Assembly: GCA_011056835.1 (NCBI GenBank)
Contig: DSDU01000168.1
Span: 1 to 36,755, forward strand
Reading direction: 5' to 3'
DNA: 36,755 nucleotides
Source: Deltaproteobacteria bacterium
Lineage (GTDB): Bacteria > Desulfobacterota > Syntrophia > Syntrophales > UBA6807
Below, in pieces: positions 12,520 to 19,261 of this stretch. The translations under genes and the position numbers were made by a program. The notes beneath the pieces are model-generated. The model was not told the DNA's origin and ran no database searches. It saw only the letters and a program-made list of their open reading frames with translations. Position 1 is the first letter of the stretch, and the number at the start of each line of letters is the position of its first letter.

Positions 12520-13419
12520 TTACCCCTCCGCCCGTCGCACATATTCGTCCCACCGGCGGTCCACCCATGCCTGCAGGGTGTTCAGCTGTTCGATGCTCAT
12601 TTTTTTGAAACGACCCTGCCGTTCCACATAATGAATGATCGGCTGTCGCTTGCCCCTGCCTGCCAGGGTTTTACTCCGTCCGGTAAGCCGGAGCCGTCCG
12701 TCTTCGATTTCGTAGAGGATTACCATCCCTGTTTCGACGGCGAGCTTGCCGATTCTGATCGTATCCTTGGTGGGATACATCCAGCCGGGTGGGCAGGGCG
12801 AATAAATGTGCATGTACCGGGTGCCCTTGATCCGCTTGGCCTTCACAAACTTTTCATAGAGATCGATTGGATAGGCGGGACATGTCGTTGCCAGGTACGG
12901 CAGGTCGTGTGCCTCCATGATCCTGACAAAATCCTTTTTCTGGTCCTGCTTGGTATTAATCGGCGTCGTCGTCGTTATGGCGCCCAGGGGTGTCGCGCTG
13001 GAACGCTGCGTCCCCGTGTTCATATATCCTTCATTATCATAGCAGATGAATATGAAATCGGTATTCCGTTCGGCGGCGCCACTGAGAGACTGGATGCCCA
13101 TGTCATAGGTTGAACCGTCTCCCGCCATGGCCACGACAGTGATATCCGACTTATTGAGAGCGGTCAATCCTGCGGCGATTCCCGATGCGGAGGCGGCGGT
13201 GCTGGCAAACGTCGTGTTCAGGCAGGGTACAGTCACCGGGGTGATCGGATATAATCCGTGAAGAACGCAGAGACAGCTTGCCGGTATGGTGAGAATGGTG
13301 TTTTCCCGCAGCGCCTTCAACAGGTAGCGATAAGCGAGCGTGAGGCCGCACCCTTGACAGGCCCTGCTTCCCGGCAGGATATATTCTTTATCGTTGATCT
13401 TGAATATGTTCTCTTGCAT
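12520..13419 (-). CDS. 2-oxoacid:ferredoxin oxidoreductase beta subunit (TPP-binding)
   Basis: GSRACQGCGLTLAYR, AMAGDGSTYDMGIQSLSGAAERN, YDNEGYMNTGTQRSSATP. Confidence 0.92.
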   Translation of the reverse strand: MQENIFKINDKEYILPGSRACQGCGLTLAYRYLLKALRENTILTIPASCLCVLHGLYPITPVTVPCLNTTFASTAASASGIAAGLTALNKSDITVVAMAGDGSTYDMGIQSLSGAAERNTDFIFICYDNEGYMNTGTQRSSATPLGAITTTTPINTKQDQKKDFVRIMEAHDLPYLATTCPAYPIDLYEKFVKAKRIKGTRYMHIYSPCPPGWMYPTKDTIRIGKLAVETGMVILYEIEDGRLRLTGRSKTLAGRGKRQPIIHYVERQGRFKKMSIEQLNTLQAWVDRRWDEYVRRAEG

Positions 13420-13423
13420 CGTC

Positions 13424-14632
13424 TCACCCCGTGTAGCAGTTAAGCCATCTTGTTTCATTCTTCATCGTCCGAACGTCCAGCATTGCCAGGGCGTTCCTGC
13501 CCGCTTCCGCCAGTTCCCGCGGTTTTACGTCCCTGCCCCCCAGCCCGGCCACATAGTTATGGACGGGGGCATGTATGCCCGTTCCGTAAAAGGCCGCCTT
13601 GAGATCGGAACAGAGCGCCCCTTCGTACCCGTAGCTGATAGCCTTTTCAAAGGTCAGAATGGCCTGAGCCCTTTCGAATGCCTGGATAACGTCGTCTGTC
13701 GGGAACGGTCGAAACACCCGAATCCCCACAACCCCGGCCTTGATCCCCTCGTTTCTCAGCATATCCGCTGCAGCGATTGCCTCGGCGGCGATCGATCCCA
13801 TGCCCGTCATGACCAGTTCGGCATCATCGGTCATATAGGTCCAGATCAATCCGCCGTGATCCCGTCCAAAGGACGATGCGAATGCGGCGTTCGTCTCGGT
13901 AATGACGGCTCTGGCTTTTTCGAAGGCGGCCTGCAGTTTGTACCTCATTTCCATGTAACCGTCGCAGAGGACTCCCTCAGGATTTTCCCGTCTTCCCGGG
14001 AACAGAACCGAATTGATTGTCCGCGGGTCTTCCGGTGAAAGGATTGTATGGGGTTTGTAGGGAGGAAGAAACTTCAGTACCTGTTCATGGTCCGGAATAT
14101 CGACCGGCATCATGGTATGGGAGAGCACGAAACCGTCGTAGCAGACCATGACGGGGATATACACCTGTTCGGCTATTCTGTACGCCTGGATAATCGTGTC
14201 GATAATTTCCTGGTTATCCCGACAGTACATCTGTATCCAGCCCGTGTCCCGCTGTGCGACGGAATCCTGCTGATCGTTGAAGATCGACCACGGCGCGCCC
14301 ACTCCCCTGTTGACACAGCACATGACAATCGGCAGCCTTGATCCCGCCGCCCAGTGGAGCTGTTCGTGCATGTAGAGGAGGCCGTTGGAACTCGTCGCGG
14401 TGAAGACACGTGCGCCCACCGTTGATGCGGAAATGCAGACGGTCAGCGCGGAATGTTCTCCTTCGACCCGGACATACTCCGCTTTCAGTTCTCCCCCTTC
14501 CACATACCGGGAAAGGATTTCCGCCAGAGAAGATTGGGGGGTTATGGGATACGCCGCCACGACCCTTGGATCGCAGAGCTTTACGCCCACCGCTGCCGCC
14601 TCGTTACCGGTTATAATCTGAACGTTACTCAT
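13424..14632 (-). CDS. 2-oxoacid:ferredoxin oxidoreductase alpha subunit
   Basis: ITGNEAAAVGVKLCDPRVVAAYPITPQSSLAEIL, EGEHSALTVCISASTVGARVFTATSSNGLLYMHEQLHWAAG, GVRVFRPFP. Confidence 0.92.
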   Translation of the reverse strand: MSNVQIITGNEAAAVGVKLCDPRVVAAYPITPQSSLAEILSRYVEGGELKAEYVRVEGEHSALTVCISASTVGARVFTATSSNGLLYMHEQLHWAAGSRLPIVMCCVNRGVGAPWSIFNDQQDSVAQRDTGWIQMYCRDNQEIIDTIIQAYRIAEQVYIPVMVCYDGFVLSHTMMPVDIPDHEQVLKFLPPYKPHTILSPEDPRTINSVLFPGRRENPEGVLCDGYMEMRYKLQAAFEKARAVITETNAAFASSFGRDHGGLIWTYMTDDAELVMTGMGSIAAEAIAAADMLRNEGIKAGVVGIRVFRPFPTDDVIQAFERAQAILTFEKAISYGYEGALCSDLKAAFYGTGIHAPVHNYVAGLGGRDVKPRELAEAGRNALAMLDVRTMKNETRWLNCYTG

Positions 14633-14918
14633 CGGCGTCCTCCTCCCGTACCATCCTGATTGCGTTGGGAGGACATTCTTCGGCACAGATTCCGCACCCC
14701 TTGCAGTAATCCATGTCGATGTGGACGGGAATCGACATGGCCACTACTCCTTCGGGGCAGTAGAGCCAGCAGAGGAAACAAGCAGCTTTTCCTTTTGTTG
14801 CGGGAATGCATTTGGTATGGTCGATCACCGGCCGTACATCCCGCCAGTCCCCCGTTCTTCCCCCCTCGCCCACCGAGGGTTTGCACAGGGCTGAAATGTT
14901 CATGTCTTTGTTATCCAT
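14625..14918 (-). CDS. 2-oxoacid:ferredoxin oxidoreductase delta subunit (4Fe-4S)
   Basis: Second motif DYCKGCGICAEECPPNAI is canonical; first motif CIPATKGKAACFLCWLYCP is atypical; overlaps the alpha-subunit start. Confidence 0.85.
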   Translation of the reverse strand: MDNKDMNISALCKPSVGEGGRTGDWRDVRPVIDHTKCIPATKGKAACFLCWLYCPEGVVAMSIPVHIDMDYCKGCGICAEECPPNAIRMVREEDADE

Positions 14919-14925
14919 GTTATGC

Positions 14926-15501
14926 TTAATCCCTTTCGTGTTTCGGTGTGATAACGGTCACGTCGAACGCTGCTGATACGGCGGAGAAATTGGCGGCGGC
15001 CCTGTCGGCGGGCATTTTTTTCTTCAATCCCTTTTCAACGCAATTCAGTGAAACAAGCCCCGTCGCCCTGGCGAATGCCCCCAGCATGGGTGTATTCATG
15101 ACGGGCGCGCCTGCCACCATGAGACGCTGTTTCCGTGCTATTCCCGACGCATCGACCGTAGCGACGGTAAAACAGCCGTCGATTGACAGGTCATCGGCGC
15201 TGTGCGGCGTGTTGATGATGATCGTTCCACCGTTTTTCAGCCGTCCGAAGATATCCACAATCGTCATGACCGTCGGATCCAGAACAACGGCGATGTCCGC
15301 CTGTTCGATCTGAGAAACGGTCCTGATCGGTGCGTCGGAGATTCTTGTTGAAGCCGTCAGCGGAGCCCCCCGCCGCTCCGGTCCGAATGTGGGGGCTGAC
15401 GTGACGCCGCCGAATCCCTGGAGGTATGCCGACTCAGCGAGAATCTGCGCCGCCAGGACGACCCCCTGCCCTCCTCTTCCGTGCCATATCACTTCGTGCA
15501 T
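14926..15501 (-). CDS. 2-oxoacid:ferredoxin oxidoreductase gamma subunit
   Basis: MHEVIWHGRGGQGVVLAAQILAESAYLQGFGGVTSAPTFGPERRGAPLTASTRISD. Confidence 0.92.
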   Translation of the reverse strand: MHEVIWHGRGGQGVVLAAQILAESAYLQGFGGVTSAPTFGPERRGAPLTASTRISDAPIRTVSQIEQADIAVVLDPTVMTIVDIFGRLKNGGTIIINTPHSADDLSIDGCFTVATVDASGIARKQRLMVAGAPVMNTPMLGAFARATGLVSLNCVEKGLKKKMPADRAAANFSAVSAAFDVTVITPKHERD

Positions 15502-15540: not shown

Positions 15541-15572
15541 AAAAAAAGGCCATGAGCTTTTCACCCATGGCC
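15541..15572 (-). terminator. Rho-independent terminator in the 5' leader of the oxidoreductase operon (attenuator candidate)
   Basis: Minus strand GGCCATGGGTGAAAAGCTCATGGCC followed by T7, about 40 nt upstream of the gamma-subunit ATG and on the same strand. Confidence 0.8.
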
Positions 15573-15598
15573 TCGTCAGGAACTTTCCGGTTAAATGA

Positions 15599-15709
15599 TC
15601 ATTCCCTCGATATGGCAGGCCACGGGCATACGCCCAAAAGAAGAGCGAGGCTTAACAAGCTCATTAAACCGTTCAAGCGCTGATTGTCTCTTCTCGTGGC
15701 TCTGTTCAT
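15599..15709 (-). CDS. 36-aa leucine-rich leader peptide (MNRATRRDNQRLNGLMSLLSLALLLGVCPWPAISRE)
   Basis: ATG preceded by AGAAGGTG at suitable spacing; 8 Leu in 36 residues, 7 within residues 15-25; stop 27 nt before the terminator hairpin; absent from the supplied ORF track because it is short. Confidence 0.6.
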   Translation of the reverse strand: MNRATRRDNQRLNGLMSLLSLALLLGVCPWPAISRE

Positions 15710-15745
15710 ATGGTGAATGACACCTTCTTTTTAAGGATGTAATGA

Positions 15746-15774
15746 ACGATATATGAAATAGACGGCAAAGTCAA
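15746..15774 (-). promoter_or_regulatory. sigma70-like promoter for the leader and 2-oxoacid oxidoreductase operon
   Basis: Minus strand TTGACT-N17-TATCGT, upstream of the leader peptide SD. Confidence 0.5.
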
Positions 15775-15833
15775 TGAAAAATTTGAAGTGATAACGGTGA
15801 TTGACGGAGAGGTGCTTATCTGTTAGATACTTT

Positions 15834-15885
15834 AAAGGCTAAAGGCTAAAGGCTAAAGGCTAAAGGCTCGGGGCGACCGGCTTCG
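15834..15885 (+). repeat. 7-bp tandem array A1 (GGCTAAA units decaying to GGCTCGG GGCGACC GGCTTCG)
   Basis: AAAGGCT x5 perfect copies (15834-15868), then three further in-phase GGCNNNN units. Confidence 0.95.
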
Positions 15886-15954: not shown

Positions 15955-16746
15955 ATGGACTTGGGGTTACAGGGGAAAGTGGCTCTCGTTGCAGGCGGGA
16001 GCATGGGGTTGGGCAAGGCGGTTGCAACGGAGTTCGCCCGGGAAGGGGCGCGGGTGGCGATCTGCGCCCTTGATGACCCCGAACTTCCGAAGGCGGCCGA
16101 TGATATCAGGAACACAACAGGCGGGGATGTCTTTGCCGTTCCCGCCGATCTGACCGATATGGATGAGGCCCGGAATTTCGTCAAAAAGTCGGTGGAGCAT
16201 TTCGGGACGGTTGATGTCCTCGTCAATAATGCAGGCGGTCCCCCGTCGGTTCCGCTCATGGAGATCGGCGACGACCTCTGGCATTTCGGCTTCAAGCTCA
16301 ATCTCATGAGCACCATTGCCATGACGACGGCGGCTGTGCCCATCATGAAGGAAAAGAAGTGGGGTCGGATCATCAATATGACGTCTATTTCGGTCAAGCA
16401 GCCCATTGACGGCCTCATTCTGTCCAATACGATCCGTTCCGGTGTCATCGGTTTTGCCAAAACGCTCTCAACGGAACTGGCGCCGTATAACGTTACCGTG
16501 AACAGTGTCTGTCCGGGATATACCTTGACCGACCGGGTGAGAAATCTCTCGAAGGTCGTGGCGGAACGGGAGAACACGACCCCCGACGCAATCGTGAAAC
16601 GATGGGAATCAACCATCCCGATGGGGCGCCTGGGAACCCCTGAGGAATTTGCAGCCCTGGTGGCTTTTCTTGCCTCGGAGCGGTCGGGATACATCACCGG
16701 CGCCGCCATTCAGATCGACGGCGGGTGGTATAAGGGAGTAATGTAA
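15955..16746 (+). CDS. short-chain dehydrogenase/reductase (3-oxoacyl-ACP reductase-like)
   Basis: GKVALVAGGSMGLGKAVATEFAREGARVAIC, DVLVNNAGGP; 263 aa; Rossmann TGxxxGxG-like motif; active-site Tyr of YxxxK not obvious (SNTIRSGVIGFAKTL). Confidence 0.85.
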   Translation: MDLGLQGKVALVAGGSMGLGKAVATEFAREGARVAICALDDPELPKAADDIRNTTGGDVFAVPADLTDMDEARNFVKKSVEHFGTVDVLVNNAGGPPSVPLMEIGDDLWHFGFKLNLMSTIAMTTAAVPIMKEKKWGRIINMTSISVKQPIDGLILSNTIRSGVIGFAKTLSTELAPYNVTVNSVCPGYTLTDRVRNLSKVVAERENTTPDAIVKRWESTIPMGRLGTPEEFAALVAFLASERSGYITGAAIQIDGGWYKGVM

Positions 16747-16939: not shown

Positions 16940-18615
16940 GGTATTTTTCCCATGACCGCCCCTTCAATCTTTTCGAGAAGGGGGGGGAACGTTTCCGGTT
17001 TCATGGCGGAAATGGGGAGCGCGTCGAAGCGCCTGCTCAGGTTGCCCAGAACAGTCTTGTCGGGAAACAGGTCTTCCTTGTTGAAGACGCGAATGCTTTT
17101 CTTATGGGACAGGCCCAGGTCGTCCAGGATCGTTTCCACGGCAGTGATCTGCTCTTCGAAATCGGGATTGCTCACGTCGATGACGTGAAGCAGGAGATCC
17201 GCTTCGTTGAGTTCCTCAAGGGTGGCACGGAATGCCGCGACGAGTTCCTTCGGGAGATGCCGTATGAACCCGACCGTGTCGGTGATGACGGCTTCCGTGT
17301 CCCGGGGAAAGCGGAGTCGCGAACTTTTCGGGTCGAGCGTGGCGAAGAGGAGATCCTCGACGAGGACATTGCTCTGTGTGAGCGCGTTCAGCAGTGTCGA
17401 CTTTCCCGCATTGGTATACCCCACGATTGATATGACGGGGAGATACATGCGTTGCCGCCTGCCACGCCGCTGTGCCCGTCCTTTCCTGATCGCAGCAAGT
17501 TCTTTTTCGAGACGGTCGATTCGTTCCCGGACCCGCCTCCGGTCGATTTCCAGTTTCATTTCGCCCGGTCCCCGTCCGCCGATACCTCCGGCGAGTCTCG
17601 ACAGGGCGGAATCCCGTTTGACGAGACGGGGGAGGCGGTACTTGAGCTGGGCCAGTTCAACCTGGATTTTCCCTTCCCTGCTGTGAGCCCGCTGGGCGAA
17701 GATATCGAGAATGAGCTGGGTCCGGTCGATGACCTTCAGATCGGTAAAATCCGTAATGGATCGACTCTGAGCGGGACTGAGTTCATGGTCGAAAATGAGC
17801 AGATTCGCACCGATCTGGAGGGCTCGAATGACGATATCCGACAGCTTTCCCCGCCCGATGACGAATTTCGGGTCGATCTGCCGGCGGTACTGCATGGCGG
17901 AGTCGAAAACCTCGACGCCGCAGGATCGGGCGAGTTCTTTCAGTTCGCCGAGTGAACGTTCGCCGTCGAAGAGGGGGTCCGTTTCCACCCTGACGAGAAT
18001 GGCCCGATCGATCCGGTCGACACGCCTGGTTGTCTGCTGCCGGGCAAGTTCCTCTTCAAGCGCCTGGATGAAATCAAGAAAGTTCATGTCCAGATCCCCC
18101 GGTCGAACGGGGTCAAGGAGCAGCCAGTAGTTCCCCTCCGGATTTTCAGGGATCACATGAGCGGCGTAAACGAGGCCGGGGATGCCCTTTTCGCCGACCT
18201 CGACGGCGGCGATGAAGTCGAGACGAAGCAGAGCCAGGTCGGTCAGGTCGTCCCGGGTAAGCGGCTCGCCGTTCAGGTGCGTGTGGATCAGCCGGAGGCC
18301 TTTGAGACGGGTTGAGGCGGCGCGGAAGCCGTCGAGGCCCGGAATGACGATTTCCCTGTGGTTGCCCACGATAACAAAGGCAATGTCTCCCCGCCTTCCG
18401 ACGAGTACCCCGATCTGGCGGTTGATCCGGTGGGAGAGTTCCGTCAGATTCCGGGCGAATTCATGGGTGAGGACGCGATCCGGCGGAATGCTCCTGCGAT
18501 AGAGCCGTTCGATGTTTGTGATGTCTTCCGACCTGAGGCCGGAAGTGTTGCCGAAGATTTTGTTTATGGCAATCTCCTGTTTCAGGCTGAGGGCGAAGGT
18601 CGATGACAGGCTCAA
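16912..18615 (-). CDS. hflX: GTPase HflX
   Basis: VSIVGYTNAGKSTLLNALT, LFATLDPKSS, ITDTVGFIRHLPKELVAAFRATLEE, GGRGPGEMKLE; start uncertain (TTG within repeat array; no nearby ATG). Confidence 0.93.
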   Translation of the reverse strand: MSLSSTFALSLKQEIAINKIFGNTSGLRSEDITNIERLYRRSIPPDRVLTHEFARNLTELSHRINRQIGVLVGRRGDIAFVIVGNHREIVIPGLDGFRAASTRLKGLRLIHTHLNGEPLTRDDLTDLALLRLDFIAAVEVGEKGIPGLVYAAHVIPENPEGNYWLLLDPVRPGDLDMNFLDFIQALEEELARQQTTRRVDRIDRAILVRVETDPLFDGERSLGELKELARSCGVEVFDSAMQYRRQIDPKFVIGRGKLSDIVIRALQIGANLLIFDHELSPAQSRSITDFTDLKVIDRTQLILDIFAQRAHSREGKIQVELAQLKYRLPRLVKRDSALSRLAGGIGGRGPGEMKLEIDRRRVRERIDRLEKELAAIRKGRAQRRGRRQRMYLPVISIVGYTNAGKSTLLNALTQSNVLVEDLLFATLDPKSSRLRFPRDTEAVITDTVGFIRHLPKELVAAFRATLEELNEADLLLHVIDVSNPDFEEQITAVETILDDLGLSHKKSIRVFNKEDLFPDKTVLGNLSRRFDALPISAMKPETFPPLLEKIEGAVMGKIPAKGAWRKA

Positions 18616-18643
18616 GGCGAAGGGCTAAAGGCTAAAGGAAGAG
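18585..18643 (+). repeat. 7-bp tandem array A4 (overlaps hflX 5' end)
   Basis: GGCTGAG GGCGAAG GTCGATG ACA GGCTCAA GGCGAAG GGCTAAA GGCTAAA GG. Confidence 0.85.
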
Positions 18644-19025: not shown

Positions 19026-19060
19026 CTATGCCCTGAGCCTTATGCCTTACGCCTTGAGCC
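19026..19060 (-). repeat. 7-bp tandem array A5 between fmdB-like stop and S23-family start
   Basis: CTATGCC CTGAGCC TTATGCC TTACGCC TTGAGCC on the + strand, five in-phase units. Confidence 0.9.
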
Positions 19061-19261
19061 TTACTTAAACTTATGCGGACTGACCTTTCGCTCCATGTCG
19101 TCGAGGAACTGGGACCAGAGATTCGTTCTGAAGGCGGTTACCAGCTTCCTGCATTTTTTCCCCTTGCATTCGGGGCACTCGATAGTAATCTTCTCATCGA
19201 TTTTATGGAATACTTCAAATTCGTGGGAGCATTGTTCGCACCCGTACTGATATAACGGCAT
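19061..19261 (-). CDS. FmdB-family zinc ribbon protein
   Basis: MPLYQYGCEQCSHEFEVFHKIDEKITIECPECKGKKCRKLV. Confidence 0.9.
   Translation of the reverse strand: MPLYQYGCEQCSHEFEVFHKIDEKITIECPECKGKKCRKLVTAFRTNLWSQFLDDMERKVSPHKFK

Follow-up and report, generated by a model that had tools for sequence, protein, structure and literature searches.

We analyzed a stretch of 36,755 nucleotides (the window) from a deltaproteobacterium of the order Syntrophales. The DNA between an SDR gene (15955-16746, plus strand) and the divergent four-gene operon of a 2-oxoacid:ferredoxin oxidoreductase (OFOR, minus strand) holds a leader that, judging from its sequence, is almost certainly a leucine-responsive, ribosome-mediated transcription attenuator. 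Because the same leader also precedes leuA in relatives while the window's own genome has no leuA, the OFOR probably produces leucine via an alternative route that fixes CO2. On balance, we favor the whole reading, in which the attenuator would control an OFOR that supplies leucine, most likely through 2-oxoisocaproate made from isovaleryl-CoA; here we infer the response in vivo and the direction of the enzyme.

Anatomy of the leader and its competing hairpins

An earlier note on this DNA had listed a set of leader elements upstream of the OFOR operon, and all of them are present on the minus strand at the positions it gave, base for base (Table 1). It had called the arrangement a translational attenuator. 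The architecture of ribosome-mediated attenuation stands, but the word "translational" does not, since what was described is ribosome-mediated attenuation of transcription.

Table 1. Features of the leader and of the OFOR operon in the window
Feature	Position	Strand	Basis or remark
Sigma-70-type promoter TTGACT-N17-TATCGT	15746..15774	-	9/12 consensus match
Shine-Dalgarno-like AGAAGGTG for leader ORF	15721..15728	-	sequence; spacing 11 nt, rather long
Leader ORF, 36 codons, MNRATRRDNQRLNGLMSLLSLALLLGVCPWPAISRE	15599..15709	-	8 Leu codons at positions 12-25; Leu-rich homologues in relatives
Region 1 GCCACGAGAAGAG	15688..15700	-	partner of region 2 when free of ribosome
Region 2: CTCTTCT (15645-15639), CCCGTGGCC (15626-15618), TCGAGGGAA (15610-15602)	15602..15645	-	
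Region 3: TTCCTGACGA (15582-15573) + GGCCATGGG (15572-15564)	15564..15582	-	
Intrinsic terminator, 12-bp stem + T7	15541..15574 (stem 15574-15546)	-	40 nt upstream of gamma ATG
OFOR gamma (PorC/KorC family)	14926..15501	-	TIGR02175 179.7 bits, cut-off 81
OFOR delta (ferredoxin-type)	14625..14918	-	TIGR02179 88.7 bits, cut-off 60
OFOR alpha	13424..14686	-	POR_N + PFOR_II; start probably MSNVQ at 14632
OFOR beta (TPP)	12520..13458	-	NF008818 372.9 bits, cut-off 405; PorB 337

The leader ORF appears to be translatable, with a start, a ribosome-binding site, and a stop that all lie upstream of the terminator, and it is conserved in homologues. Leucine is encoded at codons 12, 15, 18, 19, 21, 23, 24, and 25 (TTG, TTA, TTG, TTA, CTC, CTT, CTT, and TTG, respectively). 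The probability of at least eight leucines in codons 11-25 by chance is 8.5e-6, and when the intergenic DNA was dinucleotide-shuffled 1000 times, 3 of the shuffles held an equally leucine-rich short ORF. CTG and CTC dominate leucine usage in the window's genes; CTG, the second most common leucine codon there, is absent from the leader ORF (p=0.02).

A 240-nt fold gave z=-3.9. The energy of the 1:2 structure (fold of 15618-15712) was -31.2 kcal/mol (z -2.4), that of the 2:3 structure (fold of 15563-15634) was -28.3 kcal/mol, and that of 3:4 alone was -22.1 kcal/mol. By folding, 1:2 and 2:3 are mutually exclusive, as are 2:3 and 3:4. Region 2, the 5' strand of the antiterminator, lies within the last codons of the leader ORF, and region 3 has a double role, serving both as the 3' strand of the antiterminator and as the 5' arm of the terminator. 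The 2:3 pairing is present as the earlier note had proposed, but the 9 bp given there are too few, as TCGAGGGAA additionally pairs with TTCCTGACGA. Its 1:2 pairing fared less well: the structure folds at -31 kcal/mol and the family mean over 29 leaders is z=-1.4, but in the window's leader alone region 1 does not exceed shuffled versions of itself (z=-0.7, p=0.24). Because 1:2 is not significant in this single leader, the sequence fixes the order of events only in part.

When Leu-tRNA is ample, a ribosome would reach the stop codon of the upstream ORF (uORF) and mask region 2, and 3:4 pairing would then end transcription. When leucyl-tRNA is scarce, the ribosome would stall at the leucine codons and mask region 1, 2:3 would form in place of the terminator, and the gamma-delta-alpha-beta operon would be transcribed. 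With no translation, region 2 would be kept in 1:2, making termination the default.

Heptamer arrays (TAAAGGC, AGGCTAA, or GCCTTAAGCCTTAC) occur in the window at 15833-15868, 18608-18638, and 19037-19064; in several relatives (L012, L030, L031, L033, and L044), the leaders are immediately preceded by similar arrays of a degenerate NNNNGCC unit. The SDR-family dehydrogenase that diverges from the leader is kept in G005 too (L018).

The leader family and its targets in Syntrophales

Homologous leaders were collected starting from a DNA search of 60 relatives, which returned the leaders of orthologous gamma genes plus many terminator-only matches. On inspection, the loci with terminator matches were found to have the same architecture preceding leuA (2-isopropylmalate synthase) in other families of Syntrophales. 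A coincidence confined to the terminator was ruled out by these homologous leaders. Across the order, the recurring leader comprises a TTGACA promoter, a leucine-rich uORF, an antiterminator, and a GGCCATGGG terminator. We derived the structure from an alignment of 29 leaders (17 from OFOR operons and 12 from leuA), whose conserved blocks are the leucine-coding CTCGCTCTT, an CCCGTCGTTTTTAGGA strand that runs up to the stop codon of the uORF, the TCCTAAAGGCCATGGG with which this strand pairs, and CCATGGCCTTTTT. For leaders from the family to which the window belongs, the strand is CCCGTGGCC...TCGAGGGAA and its counterpart TTCCTGACGAGGCCATGGG, so the antiterminator exceeds the length first noted.

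Conservation of the uORF and its leucine codons in orthologous leaders, which the earlier note had set as a test of its proposal, was found: nearly all homologous uORFs contain 6-15 leucines. Of 126 homologous leaders, 124 have a TTGAC -35 box ahead of the uORF, versus 18.6 expected from shuffles, with a preferred spacing of 17, which agrees with a predicted start upstream of the uORF, another point of that note.

Within the 29 leaders, the antiterminator helix is 92.4% paired, versus 38-56% for slid versions, and double changes affect 6 of its pairs (22 cells; 0 of 500 shuffles); for the terminator, 98.6% of cells are paired. Strong covariation of the terminator is also seen in 98 leaders kept out of the derivation, with 68 double-changed cells (0 of 500 shuffles). 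In a MAFFT alignment of these held-out leaders, the antiterminator is 86% paired, a level reached by 0 of 500 shuffles, and its double changes show no excess over shuffles, the inner arm apparently being misplaced. Because this result was ambiguous for the antiterminator, we used an alignment-free test, in which the variable 13-nt arm was paired with its own region 2 versus the arms of other leaders. Compared with non-cognate duplexes, the cognate 2:3 duplex was better in 100 of 120 leaders (p=2.6e-12); with each distinct arm entered once, it was better in 62 of 80 cases (p=4e-7). Both p-values are optimistic, since related sequences are not independent. The stem covariation looked for by the earlier note is thus seen in the 2:3 and 3:4 helices, which co-vary or co-evolve.

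A covariance model built on the antiterminator matched in 134 of the 155 genomes of Syntrophales. We retrieved 100 matches, 98 of which had a downstream gene within range. The next gene was leuA for 63 and the orthologous OFOR gamma gene for 35, with no third target among the 98 classified leaders; 17 genomes have both leuA and OFOR leaders. Some of the weakest matches, outside the 100 retrieved, were considered as further targets and not counted: lysine-codon leaders preceding dapA were found in G153 and G154, and aromatic-codon leaders preceding DAHP-synthase-like genes in G070, G102, and G013. Among named genomes, 51 of the 67 gamma loci searched, almost all from Syntrophaceae, Syntrophales, or unclassified deltaproteobacterial MAGs, carry the leader at E<1e-5.

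The earlier note's reading of the leader as an attenuator of the trp/leu/ilv type is supported by the conserved uORF and leucine codons, the co-evolution of 2:3 and 3:4, and the promoter, and we take it as the almost certain mechanism. Another translation-dependent mode (e.g., Rho-dependent or purely translational), with an incidental terminator, would fit the lack of significance of 1:2 in the window's leader alone. It is very unlikely, since conservation in the leader is highest in the terminator (T-run included) and the pairings that compete with it, and since across the family the final codons of the uORF contain the antiterminator strand. Promoter-like and terminator-like sites taken singly are close to chance level in the stretch, as would be expected if coincidental pairings linked a chance short ORF to a commonplace intergenic terminator; yet conservation throughout the order, with leuA and the OFOR as the sole classified targets, refutes this account, whose probability we regard as negligible.

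Some relatives depart from the common plan. The promoter is kept and the leucine run or the whole uORF deleted before the OFOR at L019/L230 (GWC2_56_13), L266 (UBA7544), L218, L232, L236, and L244, and these deletions look like natural losses of leucine control. The OFOR itself is kept with the leader deleted or trimmed at L218, L232, L236, L244, and L230, and it occurs without the leader at L256 and L258. A divergent OFOR leader with few leucine codons is found at L262, L263, L264, and L265 (delta proteobacterium MLS_D among them), where an almost invariant GGCCCACATAGGGGG(G)CCTCGTC block and GATGAGGCC precede the terminator; this leader could be a derived version with other control logic.

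Weaker covariance-model matches elsewhere in the phylum revealed other amino-acid leaders. At L326:253-402 (G397) and L334:254-356 (G436), Tyr/Phe-codon leaders (GYGYYYSRLYRCACP; AYCFFIFYQ) with GGCC(A/G)TGGG terminators stand directly before indolepyruvate:ferredoxin oxidoreductase alpha genes (TIGR03336, ~390 bits, partial genes), an arrangement that would amount to aromatic-amino-acid attenuation of a second OFOR type, with matching amino-acid control. Lysine-rich leader peptides (DKKKGKKQEVKKTG, KKMVGKKQGIKRLG) followed by a terminator and then dapA occur at L318, L320, and L324 in the same phylum and at L304 and L306 in the same order, the dapA after the L318 leader scoring above the TIGR00674 cut-off; these look like ribosome-mediated lysine attenuation. 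At L037, L038, and L040 (G058, G050, and G023), a run of tyrosine codons (TATTATTATTAC...) and a terminator precede a gene of the tryptophanase/tyrosine phenol-lyase family. Phe/Tyr/Trp-rich leaders (L325, L331; L327, L330; L310, L311, L315; L328, L333) precede genes for 2-amino-3,7-dideoxy-D-threo-hept-6-ulosonate synthase, DAHP synthase, and a PLP aminotransferase. In family f40 (L287, L317, L319, and L322), a leucine-rich leader (LLSLLLGLVLKGCPLPERS) and an antiterminator-like repeat are followed by a FabK/nitronate-monooxygenase-like gene, and L321 and L323 have an isoleucine-rich leader, MKKILSGIIIRIAIIMGILGISPTLPGA, with a terminator.

Leucine synthesis and the role of the OFOR

The operon has the four-subunit composition gamma-delta-alpha-beta, with POR, ferredoxin, POR_N, and TPP domains, all Pfam domains above cut-off. 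The nearest solved structures for alpha are 9bt4 (POR alpha) and 5c4i (oxalate oxidoreductase alpha), and alpha keeps the YPITP threonine and an arginine aligned with those of solved PFOR relatives, residues with a role in substrate-carboxylate binding in PFOR structures. The best model for alpha is archaeal pyruvate synthase PorA and that for beta is the branched-chain (VOR) beta subfamily, each below its cut-off. Scores fell short of the pyruvate synthase equivalog cut-offs (PorA 443/550, PorB 337/405, and PorC 152/270 bits) and of those for VOR (alpha 368/646, equivalog; beta 373/405, subfamily).

A TIGR00973 profile search found no LeuA in the window's own genome (G000, 99% complete). The sole match, a 249-bit protein, is the citramalate synthase CimA (TIGR00977 741.8 bits, cut-off 450), whose gene lies within a cimA-leuC-leuD-leuB operon. 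A hidden second isopropylmalate synthase was rejected, as the four HMGL-like matches in this genome comprise CimA, a pair of proteins resembling HMG-CoA lyase, and a fragment scoring below cut-off. We also rejected a drift of CimA toward isopropylmalate synthase, its TIGR00973 score staying at ~220-270 bits whether or not a genome has LeuA. By its gene content, the organism can presumably make isoleucine by the citramalate route, and leuCDB would be retained because this route serves isoleucine; leucine appears to be without a known entry step. In a separate OFOR operon on contig C22, beta scores 422 bits versus the PorB equivalog cut-off of 405, so a pyruvate synthase is probably present apart from the window's OFOR.

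Across 155 genomes, the OFOR is found in 29 of 42 that lack LeuA versus 51 of 113 with LeuA (p=0.011, phylogeny ignored), G042 and G144 being counted from their leader loci. For genomes at least 90% complete, the counts are 19/24 and 39/84, respectively (p=0.005, phylogeny again ignored). The association is clustered by family; eleven families include genomes that have the OFOR and no LeuA, and in several of these families other members do have LeuA. Since a 100% complete genome in 5 contigs (G028) likewise has the OFOR, the leader, and CimA and no LeuA, an assembly gap alone does not account for the absence of LeuA. Neither LeuA nor the OFOR is found in five near-complete genomes; thus, loss of LeuA does not require the OFOR.

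Since attenuation would activate the operon under leucine shortage, the enzyme is expected to increase the supply of leucine; with LeuA absent, carboxylation of isovaleryl-CoA is the simplest reaction. The OFOR would act in leucine supply by converting isovaleryl-CoA, CO2, and reduced ferredoxin to 2-oxoisocaproate, which transamination would turn into leucine. It would replace LeuA in genomes such as the window's own and supplement it elsewhere. The near-exclusive leucine codons favor a leucine-specific product. The earlier note's suggestion of a branched-chain 2-oxoacid enzyme working in the biosynthetic direction is strengthened by the sharing of the leader with leuA in relatives and by the absence of LeuA from the window's own genome; the substrate is the part that we infer.

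A role in making a leucine precursor (2-oxoisovalerate from isobutyryl-CoA, or pyruvate from acetyl-CoA), with leucine serving merely as a gauge for an otherwise intact attenuator, is possible though doubtful. The top models, archaeal PorA for alpha and VOR beta for beta, would suit it despite lying under their cut-offs, and it would be sensible in the 51 of 155 genomes that have LeuA and OFOR together. It leaves the retention of the OFOR in LeuA-less genomes unexplained, however, and a PorB-equivalog beta is encoded by a different operon in the window's own genome. Moreover, the leaders carry almost only leucine codons, whereas such precursors would serve valine and isoleucine too. OFORs of this family often run oxidatively, and a hint of acyl-CoA catabolism comes from contigs C116 and C114, with their carboxyltransferase and HMG-CoA-lyase-like genes, so the enzyme might instead oxidize 2-oxoacids during amino-acid catabolism, with leucine control for some other purpose. 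This is improbable: activation upon leucine shortage has the wrong sign for a catabolic enzyme, and the co-target of the leader is leuA.

Whether the leucine-supply reading extends to the order as a whole is, to us, an even question. In that case, Syntrophales would have repeatedly replaced the LeuA entry step by a dedicated ferredoxin-dependent 2-oxoisocaproate synthase sharing the leuA attenuator, the attenuator would mark this OFOR clade as CO2-fixing and leucine-biosynthetic, and the aromatic leaders before indolepyruvate:ferredoxin oxidoreductase genes would be a possible parallel. For an OFOR clade with a substrate that homology fails to resolve, the leader provides a hint of function from sequence. 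It further points to a leucine source for LeuA-less syntrophs, namely isovalerate (a branched fatty acid common in anaerobic digesters), CO2, and low-potential electrons, and would extend amino-acid attenuation to a ferredoxin-dependent carboxylating enzyme.

Comparison with known systems

Neither the window nor ten related loci gave an Rfam covariance-model match at gathering score to leu_leader, T-box, riboswitch, or any other family, and identity with a T-box, riboswitch, or other Rfam family was dropped because Rfam had no match. The earlier note knew of no described attenuator of this kind. We likewise found no precedent in Rfam or in an incomplete full-text literature for a leucine attenuator of an OFOR or for attenuation of leuA in Deltaproteobacteria. 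The mechanism is classical; what is apparently new is the attenuator family in Syntrophales, its OFOR target, and the implied route to leucine.

The enterobacterial leuABCD leader (leuL) and the ilvB and ilvGMEDA leaders have a leucine-codon uORF, mutually exclusive 1:2, 2:3, and 3:4 hairpins, and a T-run terminator. The window's leader resembles them in architecture and in its predicted attenuation of transcription, and its relatives precede leuA. It differs from the enterobacterial leu_leader in having its own CTCGCTCTT / CCCGTCGTTTTTAGG / GGCCATGGG motifs, an OFOR target besides leuA, and no Rfam match. The leucine-rich ilv attenuator of Staphylococcus aureus reportedly combines a branched-chain codon uORF with an antiterminator and a terminator. 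These elements are also found in the ilvB uORF motif of Corynebacterium (PMC11109978). Unlike the window's leader, these two target acetolactate synthase or an ilv operon, and they belong to other phyla and differ in sequence.

The window's OFOR is like archaeal VOR and POR in its gamma-delta-alpha-beta subunits, its POR_N and TPP domains, and its solved relatives 9bt4 and 5c4i; unlike them, it scores under all substrate-specific cut-offs and is predicted to be under leucine attenuation. Rumen bacteria form leucine from isovalerate by reductive carboxylation. Unlike the route of methanogens and rumen bacteria, that of Syntrophales is proposed on the basis of the attenuator together with the loss of LeuA. 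In its proposed reaction and physiological logic, it is like the reductive carboxylation of isovalerate by which leucine synthesis has been established in methanogens (PMC10658910).
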